The notes beneath the pieces were generated by a model. It saw only the letters and a list, made by a program, of their open reading frames with translations. It did not search any database and had not been told where the DNA came from. A program made the position numbers and the translations under genes. From a virus, in the IMG/VR virus record IMGVR_UViG_3300030108_005279, positions 1-61,567 of that record: a stretch of 61,567 nucleotides of DNA. One strand, given 5' to 3'. This document shows, piece after piece, positions 1 to 23,370 of the stretch. Numbering within the stretch: the stretch's first letter is position 1; every line of letters begins with the position of its first letter.

Positions 1-469
1 TAAAGATACTGGTTGATATATGCTCAACAGCAGGGAAAAAGTTTTTCTGAACTGAGTTGTGTGCTTCATCAAAGTAGATAGTATCAACAACAATATTACT
101 CTCAGCAATTCTGTGTAGTGAATGATATGTTGTGAAAATCAACTGGTTGTGACCATCATTGGCATTGTGAAAGTTGAACTCTCTGATCGCATCAACCTTA
201 GTTGTACTAAAGTGATGAGTCTCTCCACTGTGAACGTGCATCACTTTAACATTAGTGATGAACTCTAAGAACTCTGCTGACAACTGGTTTGCCAATAGAA
301 TACGAGGAGCAACAACCACAATAGTGCTACATGCTTCACTCTCAAACTCTCTCTTGGCATCCTGTATCATACAGATAGTCTTACCACCACCTGTAGGTAC
401 AATGACTTGACCTTTATCATTGTCAATCATTGCCTGTATTGCTTGCTCTTGGTGGGGTCTTAGTTGCAT
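1..469 (-). CDS. uvsW: UvsW-like DNA/RNA helicase, 5' part only
   Basis: This is the first 156 codons of a superfamily 2 helicase; the rest lies beyond the left edge. The start codon ATG is at 469-467 behind an AGGAAA ribosome site. Seen directly: an N-terminal LRPHQEQAI segment (Q-motif-like), Walker A PTGGGKT near residue 26, a motif Ia-like VVVAPRILL, TTYHSLH, and the DEAH box FDEAHNS near residue 138. This motif order is typical of T4 UvsW, which unwinds recombination intermediates and R-loops and drives the switch from origin- to recombination-dependent replication. It is the most upstream-facing gene in the window and is read away from the restriction-modification pair. What cannot be seen is the C-terminal helicase lobe, so UvsW is chosen over other phage SF2 helicases mainly from the T4-like context. 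Confidence 0.82.
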   Translation of the reverse strand, partial: MQLRPHQEQAIQAMIDNDKGQVIVPTGGGKTICMIQDAKREFESEACSTIVVVAPRILLANQLSAEFLEFITNVKVMHVHSGETHHFSTTKVDAIREFNFHNANDGHNQLIFTTYHSLHRIAESNIVVDTIYFDEAHNSVQKNFFPAVEHISTSIF

Positions 470-536
470 AGATTTCCTGTTAATATACTCATTATAGCAG
501 TTGGGTCAAGTTTGTCTTGATTGATTGTGACACTTT

Positions 537-1295
537 TCAAACTGGTGTGATAAATTTTTCCAATGGATTATAACTTAGTATTCGATCTCTTGCTGTCTGA
601 CAATAACTTTCGCTAATATCAATTCCAATATATTTTCTACCTAATTGATGTGCAACCAATGTAGTTGTACCGACTCCGTTAAATGGGTCAAGGACTACAT
701 CATTCTGATATGAAAATAACTTAAGACACCTTTTGACTAACTCTTCTGGAAACATAGCGGGATGATTAAATTCTTTCATTCTTATCTCAGGTGCGATTGT
801 CCAATGTCCATTGACATACTTGATGAACTCATCCTTTGTAATATCAATATTCTCTCTATCCCCCTGATGTTTGATAGATGTCTTACTAAACACTTCGATA
901 AATTCAAATGGATAATTCAGATATGGGCAAGATGGAGATTTAAAACTACCCCATGCTGTCAGTTTTTTGAGATTATTCTTCAACCATAGAATCTCTCCTC
1001 TCCATATCAATCCACTCTTAACTAATTCTGTAGTCAAATAATGATGTGACGGAAAGTAATCTTTATAGTTTGGTTGGATATTAATTATTAAACGACCACC
1101 ATCTTTGAGAGTGCGTTTACATTCGCTGAATATATTTACAAGTGTATCAATATACTTAAGAGCATCACTTTTATCATCATGCTCATCATATTGCATATCA
1201 AAGTTATAAGGTGGGGATGTTAATACAATATCAACACTCTTGTCATCAATGTCTTTTAATGCTGTAAGTGCATCACTACAAATTATTTGATTCAT
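537..1295 (-). CDS. Type II DNA methyltransferase, beta class, probably N4-cytosine
   Basis: 252 residues. The catalytic motif IV TSPPY is at residues 26-30 and the S-adenosylmethionine-binding motif I (DPFNGVGT) comes late, at 203-210, followed by a GIDIS acidic strand. Catalytic motif before cofactor motif is the beta-class order. A TSPPY rather than DPPY/NPPY signature points to N4-methylcytosine (family knowledge). Its ATG overlaps the stop of the preceding endonuclease gene by four bases (1292-1295), so the two are probably translationally coupled. The partner looks MjaI-like, a family whose prototype cuts CTAG, so methylation within CTAG is the likely activity; this is inference. It could protect phage DNA from the phage's own enzyme and from host enzymes of the same specificity. 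Confidence 0.85.
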   Translation of the reverse strand: MNQIICSDALTALKDIDDKSVDIVLTSPPYNFDMQYDEHDDKSDALKYIDTLVNIFSECKRTLKDGGRLIINIQPNYKDYFPSHHYLTTELVKSGLIWRGEILWLKNNLKKLTAWGSFKSPSCPYLNYPFEFIEVFSKTSIKHQGDRENIDITKDEFIKYVNGHWTIAPEIRMKEFNHPAMFPEELVKRCLKLFSYQNDVVLDPFNGVGTTTLVAHQLGRKYIGIDISESYCQTARDRILSYNPLEKFITPV

Positions 1296-1822
1296 TGAGT
1301 AACAACTAATCCCTTCTTTGTATTCTTATAGTATATTATATCATACTCTATACTTTCTTGCCCTGCTTCCCTTTTACTTTTGTAACTATTTGGTTTGATT
1401 GAAACAAATCTTCCATCAACAACTCCATCGATTCCTTTTGATTCTTCTTCTGGTGTTGATAATCTATATTCTCCTGTCTCTGACACCATTTCCAGTATGT
1501 CCAACTGCACCTGTAAACCTGAGAATGTCTTGTCAATAATCAAATCTTTCTCCCACTCATAAACATCGTCACGAGTCAATGAATTAAGATTCTCTTTGAT
1601 TCTTTGCACATAATCCCAAGTCTTGTCAGTTGCAATATCAATCTTATCAAGTCCGATTCTGTCATTGTAGAAAGATTCCCATCCGTCTCTTGTTGGTTTA
1701 TCTGTTGACTCTCGATACTCTTGAATTAAATCACTCATCTGACCCACGTTCTTCGGTCTGGTTGCTTGTGAGAATGAGTTACCAAGATTGATAACTGAAC
1801 CAACATAGGGAAGTAATGTCAT
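1292..1822 (-). CDS. MjaI-like type II restriction endonuclease
   Basis: About 176 residues with the chosen start (ATG 1822-1820). Seen: an N-terminal block INLGNSFSQATRPKNVGQMS followed by LIQEY, and near the C-terminus ESKGIDGVVDGR plus VSIKPNSYKSK. In MjaI-family endonucleases I know the VGxxSxLI block and a SKGIDG...SIKP core as the conserved parts; the latter would be the metal site of the PD-(D/E)xK fold. It lies immediately 5' of a methyltransferase gene with a four-base overlap, the usual layout of a type II system. The frame is open to 1909, but a -10 hexamer lies across the ATG at 1843, so the longer starts would be transcribed only from a promoter further upstream. A solitary nuclease for host DNA degradation is an alternative role. 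Confidence 0.68.
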   Translation of the reverse strand: MTLLPYVGSVINLGNSFSQATRPKNVGQMSDLIQEYRESTDKPTRDGWESFYNDRIGLDKIDIATDKTWDYVQRIKENLNSLTRDDVYEWEKDLIIDKTFSGLQVQLDILEMVSETGEYRLSTPEEESKGIDGVVDGRFVSIKPNSYKSKREAGQESIEYDIIYYKNTKKGLVVTQ

Positions 1823-1841
1823 AATATAATTAATTTCTTTC

Positions 1842-1870
1842 ATTATAGCAAAGAAATCCTCTATGGTAAA
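1842..1870 (-). promoter_or_regulatory. Sigma70-type promoter of the restriction-modification pair
   Basis: On the minus strand: TTTACC at 1870-1865, a 17-base spacer, then TATAAT at 1847-1842, preceded by TG one base upstream (extended -10). Predicted transcription start is about 1835, so the first ATG on the message is the one at 1822. This decides the endonuclease start. Confidence 0.6.
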
Positions 1871-1909
1871 GAGTGTGTGACACCTTGTGATCTGACCACA
1901 TGTGAACAC

Positions 1910-18621: not shown

Positions 18622-20022
18622 TTACACCACCACCCCGTATTGTGTCTGTGAAAATGTTGAGTAAAAATTATTTGGATTTGATGTTGCAATCAATGGAACA
18701 TCAGATTGTCTACCAGATTTCAATGGTTGATCACCACTTTTTTTACTTTCTAAATTATTTACAATAACATTTGGTGCATTATCATCAACTGCAGATAAAT
18801 TTGGATTTTTTTGAACTTTCGAAATATTGTTTGAATTTGATGGAGTTATAGTTTGTGAGTTACCATTAATCATAGCTTCATATTTCGCACGAACTTCCGC
18901 TTCTAATTGTTTTTTCTTTTCTAAATCTTCTTTTGTAAAATATGCTTGACCTTTATCTCTACCCGCAGTTTTAACACCACTCTTTTCAACTGTTGCCTTC
19001 TGTGCATCCATTTCTTTTCTCATACTATCTCTTATACCTATCACTTTATCTCTTTGTGTAATATAGTTTGCAACTATTTCTTTTTGTTCTGGTGTTCCTG
19101 CTTTTTCTACAGTTTCTTGTCCTCTTCCTCTAGAATTTGCCTTTCCAACATAAAACTTTTCATTTTTACCTGATCCTTTAATCGTAATACCAGCTTCTGT
19201 TAGAGGACCTTTGAGATCATCAAATTTTTGTTTAAACTTTTGACCACCAGCAGCTTTCGTTGATGCTGCGTCAACTGCCTTTTTCATTCCAAAGAGAACA
19301 CCAACTCCTGCTGCTAATCCCAGTGCAATCAAACCTGCAGGAGACAATAAAAATCCAAGAATTGCACTTCCAACTGTCCCTATCACAGCGATTACTTTTG
19401 CGATTATTGCTGGTAGTGCCAATATTCCAACATTCATAGCAAGAAATACACCTCCAACAACCGCAAGTGCACCAACAACATTCATTCCAATTTTTTTCAA
19501 CTTCTCCTTATCACCATCCATAAACGCTTGAATTGCTTTTAACCCTTTATCAGTCAACCAACCAACGAATATTAATTCAAACGCTGCCATTAATTTAGAC
19601 AATATACCTTTTGCTTTTTTGCCAACCGCCTTGACCGGTGCGAGTAAAGCATTCTTCAATCTCTCAGGGACTTTCTCTAATAATCCTTCCTTCTTTTTTC
19701 GGTTTTCCTTTTCTCCTGCCAATAATAATTGACGATTTTCTTTTGCTGTATCCTTTTTCTTTTCCTCTGCGTCAGTGATTATAAAGTTAGATATTTTTTG
19801 TAGAGTTTCTTGAATATTTGCAATCGACTTCATCACAGATTCCATATTTGCCTGAGGTTTATCAACCTTGACTATTGCAGACTTATCAAATACTTTGCTT
19901 GGATCAAGTTTTCTTTTTCTAAGTTTAAAAACCTGCTTTCTTTCATCAGGAGACAAGTACTCTCCTGTCTTCGGATTGACTCCTGTAAACTCTGGATTTA
20001 ATTTTGGTAGAAGACTAGCCAC
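18622..20022 (-). CDS. Tape-measure-like hub protein A (GTG start)
   Basis: 466 residues from a GTG codon at 20022-20020; that start overlaps the end of the 58-codon ORF. Residues 1-130 are charged and coiled-coil-like (SIANIQETLQKISNF, EEKKKDTAKENRQ). A segment ALLAPVKAVGKKAKGI precedes an amphipathic helix LMAAFELIFVGWLTDKGLKA, which parallels the VLIGWVV segment of the next gene. Residues about 182-255 are three or four hydrophobic helices (VGALAVVGGVFLAMNVG, IIAKVIAVIGTVGSAILG, LIALGLAAGVGVLF). The C-terminal part is hydrophilic. The gene follows gp26 plus a short ORF, the place of the tape measure in most long-tailed phages, and hydrophobic segments fit that role. 466 residues at 1.5 angstroms each would span about 70 nm. 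Confidence 0.58.
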   Translation of the reverse strand: MASLLPKLNPEFTGVNPKTGEYLSPDERKQVFKLRKRKLDPSKVFDKSAIVKVDKPQANMESVMKSIANIQETLQKISNFIITDAEEKKKDTAKENRQLLLAGEKENRKKKEGLLEKVPERLKNALLAPVKAVGKKAKGILSKLMAAFELIFVGWLTDKGLKAIQAFMDGDKEKLKKIGMNVVGALAVVGGVFLAMNVGILALPAIIAKVIAVIGTVGSAILGFLLSPAGLIALGLAAGVGVLFGMKKAVDAASTKAAGGQKFKQKFDDLKGPLTEAGITIKGSGKNEKFYVGKANSRGRGQETVEKAGTPEQKEIVANYITQRDKVIGIRDSMRKEMDAQKATVEKSGVKTAGRDKGQAYFTKEDLEKKKQLEAEVRAKYEAMINGNSQTITPSNSNNISKVQKNPNLSAVDDNAPNVIVNNLESKKSGDQPLKSGRQSDVPLIATSNPNNFYSTFSQTQYGVVV

Positions 20023-20191
20023 TTTGCTGTTGTTGTTTTAGATTTTCTTCTTCAATATACTGTTCTAAGAGAGCAACATATACATCTTTTTCCCAAGGGA
20101 TCATATTTTCAATCTCTGTCAAAGAGTATTTATGGTGTTGCATCAAGGCAAAGTTTATCTTAAAGTATGACGCAAGATCAGTATGCGCCAT
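20015..20191 (-). CDS. 58-codon ORF, putative frameshift extension of gp26
   Basis: Reads MAHTDLASYFKINFALMQHH, then KYSLTEIENMIPWEKDVYVA and ends Gln-rich. It starts three bases after the gp26 stop codon and lies in the -1 frame relative to gp26. A PWExDVYVxLL helix resembles the conserved core of the T (extension) part of tail-assembly chaperones. The gene sits in the position of T4 gene 51, but it is far shorter than T4 gp51 (about 249 residues). It can be made by re-initiation from its ATG, or as a C-terminal extension of gp26 after -1 slippage at 20200-20206, which would add Arg-Val-Gly plus these 58 residues. Confidence 0.72.
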   Translation of the reverse strand: MAHTDLASYFKINFALMQHHKYSLTEIENMIPWEKDVYVALLEQYIEEENLKQQQQSG

Positions 20192-20193
20192 AC

Positions 20194-20910
20194 CTACTCG
20201 AAAAAAGATGCTAACCCTTCTAAAACTATTTCATTCTCAACCTTTGTATTTGGATTTACAACTTTCACTTTATGAGAAAGTTTTGGCATGGTTTCAAAAA
20301 ACTTTTCAACTTCTTTGAATTGTTTTGAACTTAACTGTTCAATAAACTCTGTCAATTCTTTCTTCGTGCAATCAGATGATGTCCAAGATTCTTCTTCATT
20401 AAATACTTGATCGACACATGCAGTAATCATGTCAAATGATTCACTCACTCCGATATTCTCAACATCAAAATTATTCTTTACAAATTCACCGAGTGATGGA
20501 TATTTCATTCTCATTGTAAGAGTGTCATCAAGTTTGATATCAAGTTTATGTTCAGGGTCTTTTTGAACTTTGATTGCATCTAAGTCAATAACTACAGGAA
20601 CTTGTGTTTCACCATCATCAGGGCAAGTTACAAGAACCTCCACACTCTCACCCACTGACTTACCACGAATATTTAAAAATAGATATTCAATATCAAATGT
20701 TGACAACTTATCAACTTTCGTTCCACGAGTTAAAATACAATTTCCAATGACAGTTTTGATCGCATTTGTAATCTGTTTCTGATCTTCAGATTCCATAGCA
20801 ATAATTAAAAGTTTCTCTTCTTTGACCAAAAAAGGACGATATTTTATTTTTCGATTCGAAGAAGGTAAAACCAATTCATACGTCGGGGTTGCAATTCTTG
20901 GTAAAGGCAT
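20194..20910 (-). CDS. 26: Baseplate hub assembly protein gp26 (tail assembly chaperone)
   Basis: 238 residues beginning MPLPRIATPTYELVLPSSNR, followed by KIKYRPFLVKEEKLLIIAME, the recognisable start of the T4 gp26 family. The interior has LTMRMKYPSLGEFVKNNFDV and LTEFIEQLSSKQFKEVEKFF helices; two CxxD/C-type segments (VTCPDDGETQ, TSSDCTKK) are present but no full zinc site. In T4 gp26 acts with gp51 in hub assembly around the tape measure. The gene follows gp54 and precedes the tape-measure-like genes. Its last codons TCT TTT TTC GAG TAG carry a -1 slippery site (see 20200-20206). Confidence 0.85.
   Translation of the reverse strand: MPLPRIATPTYELVLPSSNRKIKYRPFLVKEEKLLIIAMESEDQKQITNAIKTVIGNCILTRGTKVDKLSTFDIEYLFLNIRGKSVGESVEVLVTCPDDGETQVPVVIDLDAIKVQKDPEHKLDIKLDDTLTMRMKYPSLGEFVKNNFDVENIGVSESFDMITACVDQVFNEEESWTSSDCTKKELTEFIEQLSSKQFKEVEKFFETMPKLSHKVKVVNPNTKVENEIVLEGLASFFE
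20200..20206 (-). other. Candidate -1 programmed ribosomal frameshift site T TTT TTC
   Basis: On the minus strand the gp26 reading frame runs TCT TTT TTC GAG TAG, giving the canonical X XXY YYZ heptamer T TTT TTC two codons before the stop. Five bases after it, GGTATG GCG CATACT can fold into a six-pair hairpin (one G-U). An AGAAGGG element resembling an internal Shine-Dalgarno lies about ten bases before it. The -1 frame is open into the 58-codon ORF and would give a 298-residue fusion. Confidence 0.6.
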
Positions 20911-20943
20911 AATATTATTTTTAGTATATTATATAGACAGGTT

Positions 20944-21603
20944 TTAGGAATTATTTTCAGATGATCCTCTGACGATGCTTAGATTAGTTGACTCACCTGC
21001 AACGTATCTTTCATAGTTAAAGGTGACATTACATCTTAATACGTCAGAACTTCCATACTGAACGGGAGTTGATGCAAAATTAATCGGAAACATACCAATA
21101 AAAGTATACTCGATTTCTTTCTGATAGTCAATATTAAACTTAACAATCTTCGTCTTGTCACACTTGTAACCTGAGTCACCTCTTGGATATCTCATACGAT
21201 AAAAATATCCTGGTGATGCTTTTGAAAATGAAGTAATTCTTCTTTTTTCTGATCCACTTGATATGTAATCCATCCAATGTTCAAAGAACTTGATCATCTT
21301 GTAATCCTTATCAACATAAAACTCCAAAGACATTTCTGAAAAAATTCTTGTGTGTGCAAATTTTTCTTGAACACCAGTAAAGTTTCCAAATATATCACTT
21401 GTTGCCAGTGCACTGCCAGGTATTGAAGCAGAACTACATAATAATCCTGAATTATCTGTTATAAATCTTCTATCTACATTTTTGCTTCCTAAAAATGAGA
21501 ATAAACTTGGTGACAAACCATCAAAAAACACTTGATAATGCGACGTTTGTGCCACATTCGTCAGTATTGGTTTAAATTCAGATATTTTTTTAGGTGAAAC
21601 CAT
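20944..21603 (-). CDS. 54: Baseplate tail-tube initiator gp54-like
   Basis: 219 residues, with a tube-protein-like fold: SHYQVFFDGLSPSLFSFLG, ASIPGSALATSDIFGNFTGV, KFAHTRIFSEMSLEFYVDKD, KFFEHWMDYISSG and YTFIGMFPINFASTPVQYGS. These blocks are shared by T4 gp19 (tube) and gp54 (initiator). I choose gp54 because the divergent neighbour operon encodes gp48 and gp53 and because the gene adjoins gp26; T4 gp54 is longer (320 residues), so a gp19 paralogue is the alternative. Its ATG (21603) is one end of a 10-bp inverted repeat whose other end contains the ATG of gp4, so the two divergent genes share a 37-base control region. Confidence 0.7.
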   Translation of the reverse strand: MVSPKKISEFKPILTNVAQTSHYQVFFDGLSPSLFSFLGSKNVDRRFITDNSGLLCSSASIPGSALATSDIFGNFTGVQEKFAHTRIFSEMSLEFYVDKDYKMIKFFEHWMDYISSGSEKRRITSFSKASPGYFYRMRYPRGDSGYKCDKTKIVKFNIDYQKEIEYTFIGMFPINFASTPVQYGSSDVLRCNVTFNYERYVAGESTNLSIVRGSSENNS

Positions 21604-21643
21604 CTAAATACTCTATATCTCTATATTATAAACTATTTAGATG
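21601..21643. repeat. Inverted repeat spanning the two divergent start codons
   Basis: CATCTAAATA (21601-21610) and TATTTAGATG (21634-21643) are perfect 10-bp inverted copies, each including a start codon. Between them are TATATTATAA-type AT-rich elements that could act as -10 boxes in both directions. Confidence 0.6.
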
Positions 21644-22078
21644 TCTTATAAAGGTAAATATAAACCATCGAATACAAGAAAGTACAAAGGTGATCCAACA
21701 CAAATTATTTACAGATCACTTTGGGAAAGAAGATTCATGGTTTACTGTGACACGAATGAAAATATATTAGAGTGGGGAAGTGAAGAGATATGTTTACCCT
21801 ATCGTTCACCGATTGACAATCGAGTGCATCGATACTTTCCAGATTTTTATATTAAAGTGAAAGAATCAAATACAATTAAAAAGTATTTGATTGAAGTCAA
21901 ACCCAAAAAACAAACAACTCCTCCAAAGAAACCAAGAAGACAAACAAAAGGTTATATTCGTGAAGCATATGAGTATGCAAAGAATCAAGCGAAGTGGAAA
22001 GCAGCAAAAGAATTTTGTGCTGACCGCATGTGGGAGTTTAAAGTTATCACGGAAATCGAATTAGGAATCAAGAAATGA
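21641..22078 (+). CDS. 4: Head completion nuclease-like protein gp4
   Basis: 145 residues. Seen: YKGDPTQIIYRSLWERRFMV with a conserved Glu, ENILEWGSEEICLPYRSP, RVHRYFPDFYIKVK and KYLIEVKPKKQTTPPKKPRR. The E ... PDF ... EVKPKKQ series is the TnsA-like PD-(D/E)xK nuclease pattern characteristic of T4 gp4, a head completion protein that acts on packaged heads before tails join. The C-terminal half is Lys/Arg-rich (DNA contact). It starts a four-gene plus-strand operon with gp48 and gp53 and overlaps the next gene by four bases. Confidence 0.82.
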   Translation: MSYKGKYKPSNTRKYKGDPTQIIYRSLWERRFMVYCDTNENILEWGSEEICLPYRSPIDNRVHRYFPDFYIKVKESNTIKKYLIEVKPKKQTTPPKKPRRQTKGYIREAYEYAKNQAKWKAAKEFCADRMWEFKVITEIELGIKK

Positions 22079-22446
22079 ATCGTCCAACCGATGACAATGA
22101 TAATCGAATCAGATCAGTTGTTGATAGTGTAATCGGCACTGAAGATCCTGATGATTTAATGGTTGATTTAATGAATGCACTCACCGAAGGAAGTAAAGTG
22201 CCAAAGGTTGGTGGATATTATACATTTGTATATACTCCTAAGACTCCGAATATACCTTATGATTCAAATCCACTGGTTGCAGTGACTGATGTCTTTGAAT
22301 GGGGATTTCGTGGTATCAACTTTCACTGGGGAACGATGAGAAAATATACATGGAATGAGATTCCTGGTGGACTTTATGAAATTAATTCTGATGAACTCGC
22401 TGATGCCAGAGAGATTCCTTTTGGTCATATCCGTCTAAATAGTTAA
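22075..22446 (+). CDS. Conserved T4-like marine phage protein, function unknown
   Basis: 123 residues. The core YYTFVYTPKTPNIPYDSNPL followed by FEWGFRGINFHWGTMRKYTW is a block I associate with a small protein next to gp48/gp53 in T4-like cyanophages; its biochemical role is unknown to me. Trp/Tyr-rich strands suggest a compact beta fold. The N-terminus is Asp/Arg-rich and helical. It overlaps gp4 by four bases and lies nine bases before gp48, so a structural or assembly role in head-tail completion is a reasonable inference. Confidence 0.62.
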   Translation: MNRPTDDNDNRIRSVVDSVIGTEDPDDLMVDLMNALTEGSKVPKVGGYYTFVYTPKTPNIPYDSNPLVAVTDVFEWGFRGINFHWGTMRKYTWNEIPGGLYEINSDELADAREIPFGHIRLNS

Positions 22447-22455
22447 AAAACAATA

Positions 22456-23370
22456 ATGTCAAAGAAATTTTCGCCGCTAAGATATCCAAATGCTCGTATT
22501 GATACTGATAGTGACTACTTAGAAATCAGAGTGGTTGAGTATGAACCACCTGGTTTTGAAGTAGGTGCGCAGGAGGGTCAGGGATTAAGTTTGGGAACAT
22601 CAACTGATGCGTTACAAGAGAATATCGAAAATCCATTAGGTTTTATTTTTCTACCAATTCCTGAGAATATACAAGATTCAAACGCTGTCAACTGGGGTGA
22701 TGATAGTATTAATGGACTTGCAGCTGCTGGTGTCGGTGCAATAAAAGGTGCTATTACATCTGAAAATTTTATTAAGGGAGCAACTGAAGCGGCTCAAAAA
22801 TTTGGCAGTGGTCTTGGTGATGTAGCAACTGATAAAAGCACAAGAGATTTAGCATCTTCATACTTTGCATCAAAGGCATTAAATATATTTGGTGGCAATA
22901 CATCATTAGATGGAGTTTTAGCAAGATCCTCAGGTCAAATCATTAATCCAAATATGGAGTTACTCTTCAATGGTGTGACTTTAAGATCTTTTAGTTTTTC
23001 ATTTGATCTTGCACCAAGAGATGAAAGAGAAAGTGATACAATCAAAAGAATGTTGAGAATCTTCAAACAAAACATGCAAGCGAAAAGATCATCAGACGGA
23101 ACTTCAAATTCATCTGGTTTATTTCTTCGTTCACCAAATGTATTTCAACTTAATTATAAAACAGGTCGTAGAAATCATAATTTCTTACATAAGTTTAAAC
23201 CAATGGCACTTTTGAATATGGCAGTCAACTACACTGGTGGTGGAACATACGCAACTTATGATGATACAACACCAGTTCACATGAAACTTGACTTATCATT
23301 CCAAGAATTAAATCCTGTTTACTCTGAAGATTATGAGTCAGAAGAAGGTAAAGAAGGAGTTGGATTCTAA
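22456..23370 (+). CDS. 48: Baseplate tail-tube cap protein gp48
   Basis: 304 residues. The N-terminus PLRYPNARIDTDSDYLEIRV, the central ALA/GAIKGAITS helical stretch, and the C-terminal LFNGVTLRSFSFSFDLAPRD followed by ESDTIKRMLRIFKQNM are the pattern of T4 gp48. The C-terminal domain has the tube-like fold that caps the hub and starts tail tube polymerisation with gp54. T4 gp48 is about 364 residues. The stop overlaps the gp53 start by one base (TAATG). Confidence 0.78.
   Translation: MSKKFSPLRYPNARIDTDSDYLEIRVVEYEPPGFEVGAQEGQGLSLGTSTDALQENIENPLGFIFLPIPENIQDSNAVNWGDDSINGLAAAGVGAIKGAITSENFIKGATEAAQKFGSGLGDVATDKSTRDLASSYFASKALNIFGGNTSLDGVLARSSGQIINPNMELLFNGVTLRSFSFSFDLAPRDERESDTIKRMLRIFKQNMQAKRSSDGTSNSSGLFLRSPNVFQLNYKTGRRNHNFLHKFKPMALLNMAVNYTGGGTYATYDDTTPVHMKLDLSFQELNPVYSEDYESEEGKEGVGF

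Follow-up and report, generated by a model that had tools for sequence, protein, structure and literature searches.

An MjaI-like restriction-modification gene pair in a T4-like cyanophage and the loss of CTAG sites in many carriers of the nuclease gene

The window analysed here is a 61,567-nucleotide stretch of viral DNA (IMG/VR record IMGVR_UViG_3300030108_005279), and it is DNA of a T4-like cyanophage. Its first 6 kb match 152 phage records by blastn, named as Synechococcus (109), Cyanophage (22), Prochlorococcus (14), Marine (5), and uncultured (2). A prediction made from sequence alone (the original prediction) had described a complete MjaI-like restriction-modification (R-M) pair at positions 537-1909 inside a T4-like phage. 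The phage setting held, as the cyanophage record matches show. The locus consists of the following features.

1842..1870, minus strand: promoter-like site upstream of R, TTTACC-17 nt-TATAAT (pattern scan, suggestive only)
1292..1822, minus strand: R, MjaI-family restriction endonuclease gene, 176 aa (Pfam RE_MjaI, PHROG 14722, alignments, structure model)
1292..1295, minus strand: 4-bp ATGA shared by the stop of R and the start of M (sequence)
537..1295, minus strand: M, N6_N4-type DNA methyltransferase gene with TSPPY, 252 aa (Pfam N6_N4_Mtase)
1..470, minus strand: N-terminal part of a helicase gene, start near 469, cut by the window edge (blastn to cyanophage helicases and the S-SM2 gene order)

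The order of transcription on the minus strand is R first, then M. R matches Pfam RE_MjaI (PF09568) with E=2.3e-45 and 154.8 bits (cut-off 22.7), and its residues 10-174 align to positions 3-164 of this profile of length 164. It also matches PHROG 14722 (E=1.6e-80), which is labelled as unknown function. A search of R against NCBIfam gave no match, and a sequence search of the PDB returned just one chemoreceptor (E 0.21). M matches Pfam N6_N4_Mtase (PF01555) with E=1.3e-44. The sequence and alignment show TSPPY near its N terminus and FNGVGTT, of the FNGxGTT pattern, near its C terminus. TSPPY would point to N4-cytosine methylation. M is presumed to be the cognate CTAG methyltransferase, its methylation being inferred. 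R and the adjacent M form a complete type II R-M pair; this is shown for the genes and their families, and cleavage and methylation are inferred.

Much of the original prediction held at this level. Both ORFs are present with both Pfam matches, as expected of a complete MjaI-like pair, the TSPPY motif is seen, and the four-base overlap is the ATGA at 1292-1295. The profile check it had proposed, for RE_MjaI and N6_N4_Mtase, was passed, and its refuting outcome, the absence of any MjaI match, is not what was observed. The left part of its span also held. Taken to its full length, the R ORF would reach back to a GTG at 1909. The ATG at 1822, however, corresponds to the start residue of the annotated R genes in all four isolates described below, and in 33 of the 48 viral R loci this residue is also where the ORF has its first start codon. 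Therefore, R likely starts at the ATG at 1822, giving 176 aa, and the right edge at 1909 is probably 87 bases too far. The claim that the pair has its own sigma70 promoter has only suggestive support. The promoter-like site at 1870-1842, just upstream of the R ATG, has a TG preceding its second hexamer, TATAAT. The region contains 13 such sites against 9.2 +/- 3.3 in shuffles (within about one sd), so a sigma70 promoter belonging to R is plausible but unproven.

The pair in the window is not the first of its kind. A search of 50,697 phage records detected R in 10, which represent four phages, S-SM2, S-RIM32, S-H9-2, and S-CAM3, all listed as Kyanoviridae with Synechococcus hosts. The cyanophage helicase, by comparison, is found in 416 of the same records. 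S-RIM32, S-H9-2, and S-CAM3 carry R then M, with the gene order and 4-bp overlap of the window, and the two genes are already annotated as a restriction enzyme and a methylase. S-SM2 carries the nuclease alone. The insertion sites of R differ: its neighbour is psbA in S-RIM32 and S-H9-2 and regA in S-CAM3, whereas in the window and S-SM2 it lies near the helicase, with one gene between the two in S-SM2. The helicase is of T4-GC 36 and is located downstream of M in the window and downstream of R in S-SM2, so that both phages share this neighbour, whereas only the window keeps M.

A scan of IMG/VR yielded 48 R loci, including those of S-SM2, S-RIM32, and S-CAM3. M lies directly behind R in 39 of them, seven are R-only (one being S-SM2), and two are cut off. 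The order is R-then-M in all 39 viral loci having both genes. A tree of R places six of the seven R-only copies, including that of S-SM2, in a single group (100/95), which is nested in a larger supported group also containing R+M copies (22 rows, 97/95). The seventh R-only copy, L151, sits among R+M copies. The simplest reading of these two R-only positions is therefore that M was lost in two places. The positions were read from the drawn tree; the one-change count given by the tree tool omits the R+M rows. Conversely, 47 M loci were found, and 40 of the 46 that remained after the exclusion of L406 (20% identity) also have R. Genes other than R precede M in L393 and L394, and L402-L405 begin at M or at most 80 bases from it.

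R is conserved as an intact gene. All 46 full-length IMG/VR copies and the window copy read through without interruption. E126, E127, D132, K143, and E156 are invariant in 39 aligned sequences (21 viral and 18 cellular). D132, K143, and E156, which we infer to be the putative catalytic residues, are kept in the 46 full-length viral copies and the window copy. R is under purifying selection. Its dN/dS is 0.07-0.11 among R-only pairs, with identical pairs and pairs with L151 (dS saturated) set aside, and 0.05-0.12 in nine chosen R+M pairs.

The structure model of R is confident (pLDDT 92.1, pTM 0.64) and has an order of helices and strands that fits the PD-(D/E)xK core. By VIA, residues about 82-176 match Hjc, Eco15I, DpnI, and PA endonuclease at Z 3.1-4.4. 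The top VIA row, however, is an unrelated photosystem chain that matches residues 2-82 (Z 4.7), and unrelated helical proteins match the N-terminal half with equally high scores. The top Foldseek match is the restriction enzyme 3ndh at E 0.17, and no match was found at E <= 0.001. The predicted C-terminal half of R thus resembles PD-(D/E)xK nucleases only weakly, so that the PD-(D/E)xK match mentioned in the original prediction is seen only in weak form (Foldseek E 0.17; VIA Z below 5).

The site of MjaI is CTAG. We compared the number of CTAGs in each phage with an expectation computed from the 3-mers and 2-mers of the sequence itself. R-less cyanophages are near expectation, with eight at 0.74-1.14 observed/expected. 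The observed and expected counts are 499/494 in Sf-FS3, 323/357 in Bellamy (180 of 205 kb), 378/424 in SynMITS9220M01, 551/570 in ACG-2014j, 368/402 in Syn19, 315/423 in S-SKS1, 14/17 in P-SSM2 (5-kb piece), 312/273 in S-CAM1 (98 of 198 kb), and 135/126 in Sf-CH3 (49 of 200 kb). The R profile detected no R in the seven searched with it (Sf-FS3, Bellamy, SynMITS9220M01, S-SKS1, P-SSM2, Syn19, and ACG-2014j), and S-CAM1 and Sf-CH3 are outside the ten R-positive phage records. Among phages with R and M, the counts are 16/84 in the window, 32/428 in S-RIM32, 61/450 in S-H9-2, and 79/424 in S-CAM3. The ratio in these three isolates is 0.07-0.19. The complete genome of S-SM2 (190,789 bp), in which R is present, contains 0 CTAGs against 290 expected.

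The loss is also seen at aligned sites. None of the 155 Bellamy CTAGs aligned to S-SM2 is kept, whereas 34 of 143 are kept in an R-less control, Bellamy aligned to SynMITS9220M01. Base identity is 0.76 in the control against 0.77. Between S-CAM1 and S-CAM3, 13 of 189 CTAGs are kept. Fisher p values against the control are 1.4e-12 for S-SM2 and 2.3e-5 for S-CAM3. CTAG is the least-kept palindrome in both phages by this test, and other palindromes are kept at 12-56% between Bellamy and S-SM2. CCGG is kept at 7/57 in the S-SM2 comparison and at a still lower rate, 1/53, in the R-less control.

No methyltransferase was detected in S-SM2. A profile search of its 190,789 bp found no match to PF01555, PF02086, PF00145, or PF02384, the annotation names no methyltransferase, and M is not next to R. 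A search with PF05063 carries no weight, since this profile matched none of the controls. The best reading is that S-SM2 owes its self-immunity to site loss alone, without M, where the absence of a methyltransferase means that none was detected. The step from few CTAGs to strictly zero rests on this one isolate. Between R and the helicase, where the window has M, S-SM2 contains SSM2_067 (L021:6636-7775, 379 aa), for which Pfam gave no match and the phage collection no relative beyond the two records of S-SM2.

The metagenomic loci show the same association, with exceptions. Pooled CTAG counts are 1117/1397 (0.80) in 79 helicase loci without R, 307/790 (0.39) in 38 R+M loci (window included, isolates excluded), and 12/99 (0.12) in six R-only loci. 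CTAG ranks first of 136 tetramers when loci without R are compared with R loci (p 1.2e-10; next GTAA, 5.8e-7), with R+M loci (p 7.6e-9; next 6.1e-8), and with R-only loci (p 2.9e-7; next 5.6e-6). When R-only and R+M contigs are compared with each other, CTAG is outside the eight most different tetramers. These p values overstate independence because many contigs are near-copies. The 79 R-less loci are fragmentary and come from the 80 top-ranking entries of a longer helicase list, and R may lie outside the fragments. Two cut-off R loci, L182 (17/24.6 CTAG) and L183 (0/14.1), were left out of the counts. The tetramer test also omits the isolates L154, L167, and L168, and L152, which appeared in both scans, was counted as R-only.

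Loss is not universal among carriers of both genes. L016 (14/12.6) and the near-copies L180, L181, and L020 (together 50/52.6) show none, and L171 (16/19.8) and L174 (20/25.6; whole contig 77/91) show little. Two of the 79 R-less fragments are also without CTAG (L207, 0/6.3; L212, 0/7.4). Among R-only contigs, L149, L153, and L010 have no CTAG, whereas L147 (2/8.6), L152 (2/10.6), and G006 (45.6 kb, L343-L345; 9/107) keep some. These contigs weaken the notion that R alone demands zero sites, but they are fragments and M may lie elsewhere. Even so, it is shown that CTAG loss occurs and is associated with R, and that carriers tend to have few CTAGs. All nine CTAGs of G006 are located within 2.8 kb (19853-22618), in one tail-fibre gene, with none in the other about 43 kb. 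Over the 3 kb searched, this gene shares 81% identity with S-SSM7, which is outside the R-positive phage records. A recent exchange, a chimeric assembly, or an M located elsewhere are possible explanations. In L393 and L394, M lies behind a gene that we take to be purC-like and no R was detected, yet both are CTAG-poor (1/11.0 and 0/9.1). R may be elsewhere in these phages or may have been lost recently.

An R-M pair need not leave such a footprint. Syn19 and ACG-2014j (L078, L079) contain annotated RsaI pairs, and their GTAC ratios of 0.48 and 0.41 are within the 0.30-0.67 of the other phages counted, without extra loss. In the open-access literature searched, we found no report of CTAG avoidance in cyanophages. 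A survey of site avoidance concerned host-encoded enzymes (PMC6286503), and the main text of the paper describing S-SM2 (PMC3037559) contains no word starting with "restriction". Within this literature, the CTAG footprint appears to be new, as does the combination in S-SM2 of R with neither a detected M nor any site.

The closest known relative by profile is the MjaI system of M. jannaschii (PF09568), whose genome is matched by the R profile among 14 control genomes. CTAG, the site of MjaI, fits the avoidance seen in phages. The best 80 of 169 cellular R proteins are 37-47% identical to the window R, and 66 of these 80 loci have an N6/N4-type methyltransferase no more than 1.5 kb away. The arrangement differs from that of phages: M is upstream in 35 of the 66, convergent in 29, and R-then-M in two, whereas phage pairs are R-then-M with overlapping ends. 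Some phage lineages, unlike these pairs, keep R alone. Fourteen of the 80 have no such M nearby; some of these are cut short, and the search for M relied on similarity to the phage M alone. In this single scan of genome contigs, no cyanobacterium appears among the titles of the 80 loci. Ten of the 14 M-less loci (L265, L268, L273, L274, L278, L281, L300, L305, L325, and L342) are titled Desulfobacterales, Desulfobacteraceae, or Desulfococcaceae. They may represent a cellular lineage of solitary R, or of R with an unrelated M. Solitary restriction enzymes have been discussed for prokaryotic genomes (PMC3488263).

Viral nucleases that distinguish self from non-self are known from other systems. 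The chlorella virus PBCV-1 encodes both R and M, and these are described as destroying host DNA and leaving the viral genome protected (PMC7248222). It differs from the present case in its eukaryotic host, its GATC and CATG adenine systems, and the packaging of the enzymes in virions. T4 endonucleases II and IV (denA and denB) spare phage DNA while host DNA is destroyed. T4 recognises self by modified cytosine, whereas the mark for R would be a methylated or missing CTAG.

Taken together, the pair in the window is probably an active type II R-M system that recognises CTAG, directed at host and/or rival DNA, with self-immunity provided by methylation and site loss. Cleavage, specificity, methylation, and the victim are inferred, without bench data. 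The few or absent CTAGs in R carriers suggest that R is active and that self-protection comes partly from the absence of targets. Loss occurs even when M is present, a sign that replication may outpace methylation. In the proposed mechanism, R would cut unmodified CTAGs in DNA found alongside the phage in the cell, either the host chromosome, for which we have no CTAG counts, or competing phages, or both. M would methylate the CTAGs remaining in the phage genome. Methylation presumably lags behind fast replication, each unmethylated site would be a hazard, and most CTAGs would disappear from the genomes of many carriers. With no CTAG left, M would become dispensable, as may have happened in the S-SM2 lineage, where M is undetected and R alone is kept. 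The order of these events is inferred. The order R-then-M would fit a phage that has no need to protect the chromosome it enters.

With respect to the original prediction, its CTAG specificity is supported indirectly by the CTAG loss in many carriers, a test that it did not contain. As for its statement that the phage is protected, methylation can be no more than half of the answer, since many carriers also lose sites and S-SM2 seemingly has no methyltransferase. The suggestion that the nuclease cuts competing phages or host DNA is compatible with the data, and the choice between the two is undecided.

A bolder reading is that at least one lytic phage lineage uses R without an antidote and is immune because every CTAG has been purged from 190 kb. 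The pair in the window would then represent an earlier stage of a series in which the pair is acquired, sites are lost, and the methyltransferase is discarded. By a narrow margin, we lean towards this reading.

Two versions of the preferred explanation differ in the victim. In the first, the main role of R is to supply nucleotides by degrading the host chromosome, as the restriction enzymes of chlorella viruses and T4 denA and denB do. A review reports that denA, denB, and ndd are missing from cyanomyoviruses and raises an undescribed method of host DNA degradation as one possibility (PMC2984593). Digestion and recycling of host DNA are attributed to the R-M systems of PBCV-1 (PMC7248222), and the R-then-M order in 39/39 viral loci against 2/66 cellular pairs also favours this version. 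However, R is present in only 10 of the 50,697 records, compared with 416 for the helicase, and most cyanophages manage without it. The balance tips slightly against this version. In the second, R mainly acts against other phages in the same cell. R-less cyanophage genomes hold about 315-551 CTAGs, and an unmethylated rival would be heavily cut. The sporadic distribution of R is expected for an inter-phage weapon. Nevertheless, there are no co-infection data, and phages that enter may escape R by replicating too late or too quickly. This version, too, seems to us a little more doubtful than probable.

An alternative is that hosts carry CTAG-cutting restriction enzymes, so that the phage pair is incidental, or that M is an anti-restriction gene with R as a passenger. 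Avoiding the sites of host enzymes is a known phage strategy (PMC6286503), and CCGG is also absent or nearly so in several cyanophages without a convincing responsible gene. However, phages with the same recorded host, WH8102, have different CTAG ratios (0.14 in S-H9-2, with R+M, against 1.01 and 1.07 in the R-less Sf-FS3 and Sf-CH3), and CTAG loss tracks R across different insertion sites. Phages of one host strain differ by R, and host-driven avoidance was therefore set aside as unlikely; this comparison does not extend to WH8017, the host of S-SM2. A benefit from M alone is also at odds with S-SM2, in which no M was found and R is under purifying selection. The last alternative, that R is an inactive or decaying remnant and the depletion of CTAG an accident of composition, is very unlikely: CTAG is rare in many prokaryotes and some R+M lineages show no loss, but the 46 full-length viral copies and the window copy are intact with the putative catalytic residues kept and dN/dS at about 0.1, the R-less phages counted have close to the expected number of CTAGs, and CTAG is the least-kept palindrome in S-SM2 and S-CAM3.

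If the preferred reading of an active CTAG nuclease is true, some T4-like cyanophages have a nuclease against host or rival DNA, of the kind that the review calls missing (PMC2984593). Self and non-self would be told apart by a methylated or absent CTAG, and these phages would show clearly how a virus can reshape its entire genome to suit an enzyme that it encodes. The loss of cognate sites in carriers can serve as a sequence-only test of activity and specificity for uncharacterised phage restriction enzymes, although the test can be silent, as the RsaI pairs show. PHROG 14722, now of "unknown function", can take the family name (MjaI-type).

CCGG loss is a second site avoidance, without a convincing shared gene. 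A phyletic-pattern search from the S-RIM32 ORFs gave as candidates three short minus-strand ORFs, which are probably spurious. The phage loci concerned are L043-L072, L080-L090, L120-L128, and L362-L364. Observed and expected CCGG counts are 0/98 in S-RIM32, 0/95 in S-H9-2, 1/158 in S-CAM3, 0/145 in Syn19, 0/64 in S-CAM1, 0/34 in Sf-CH3, and 12/191 in Sf-FS3; in the window they are 28/28.7.
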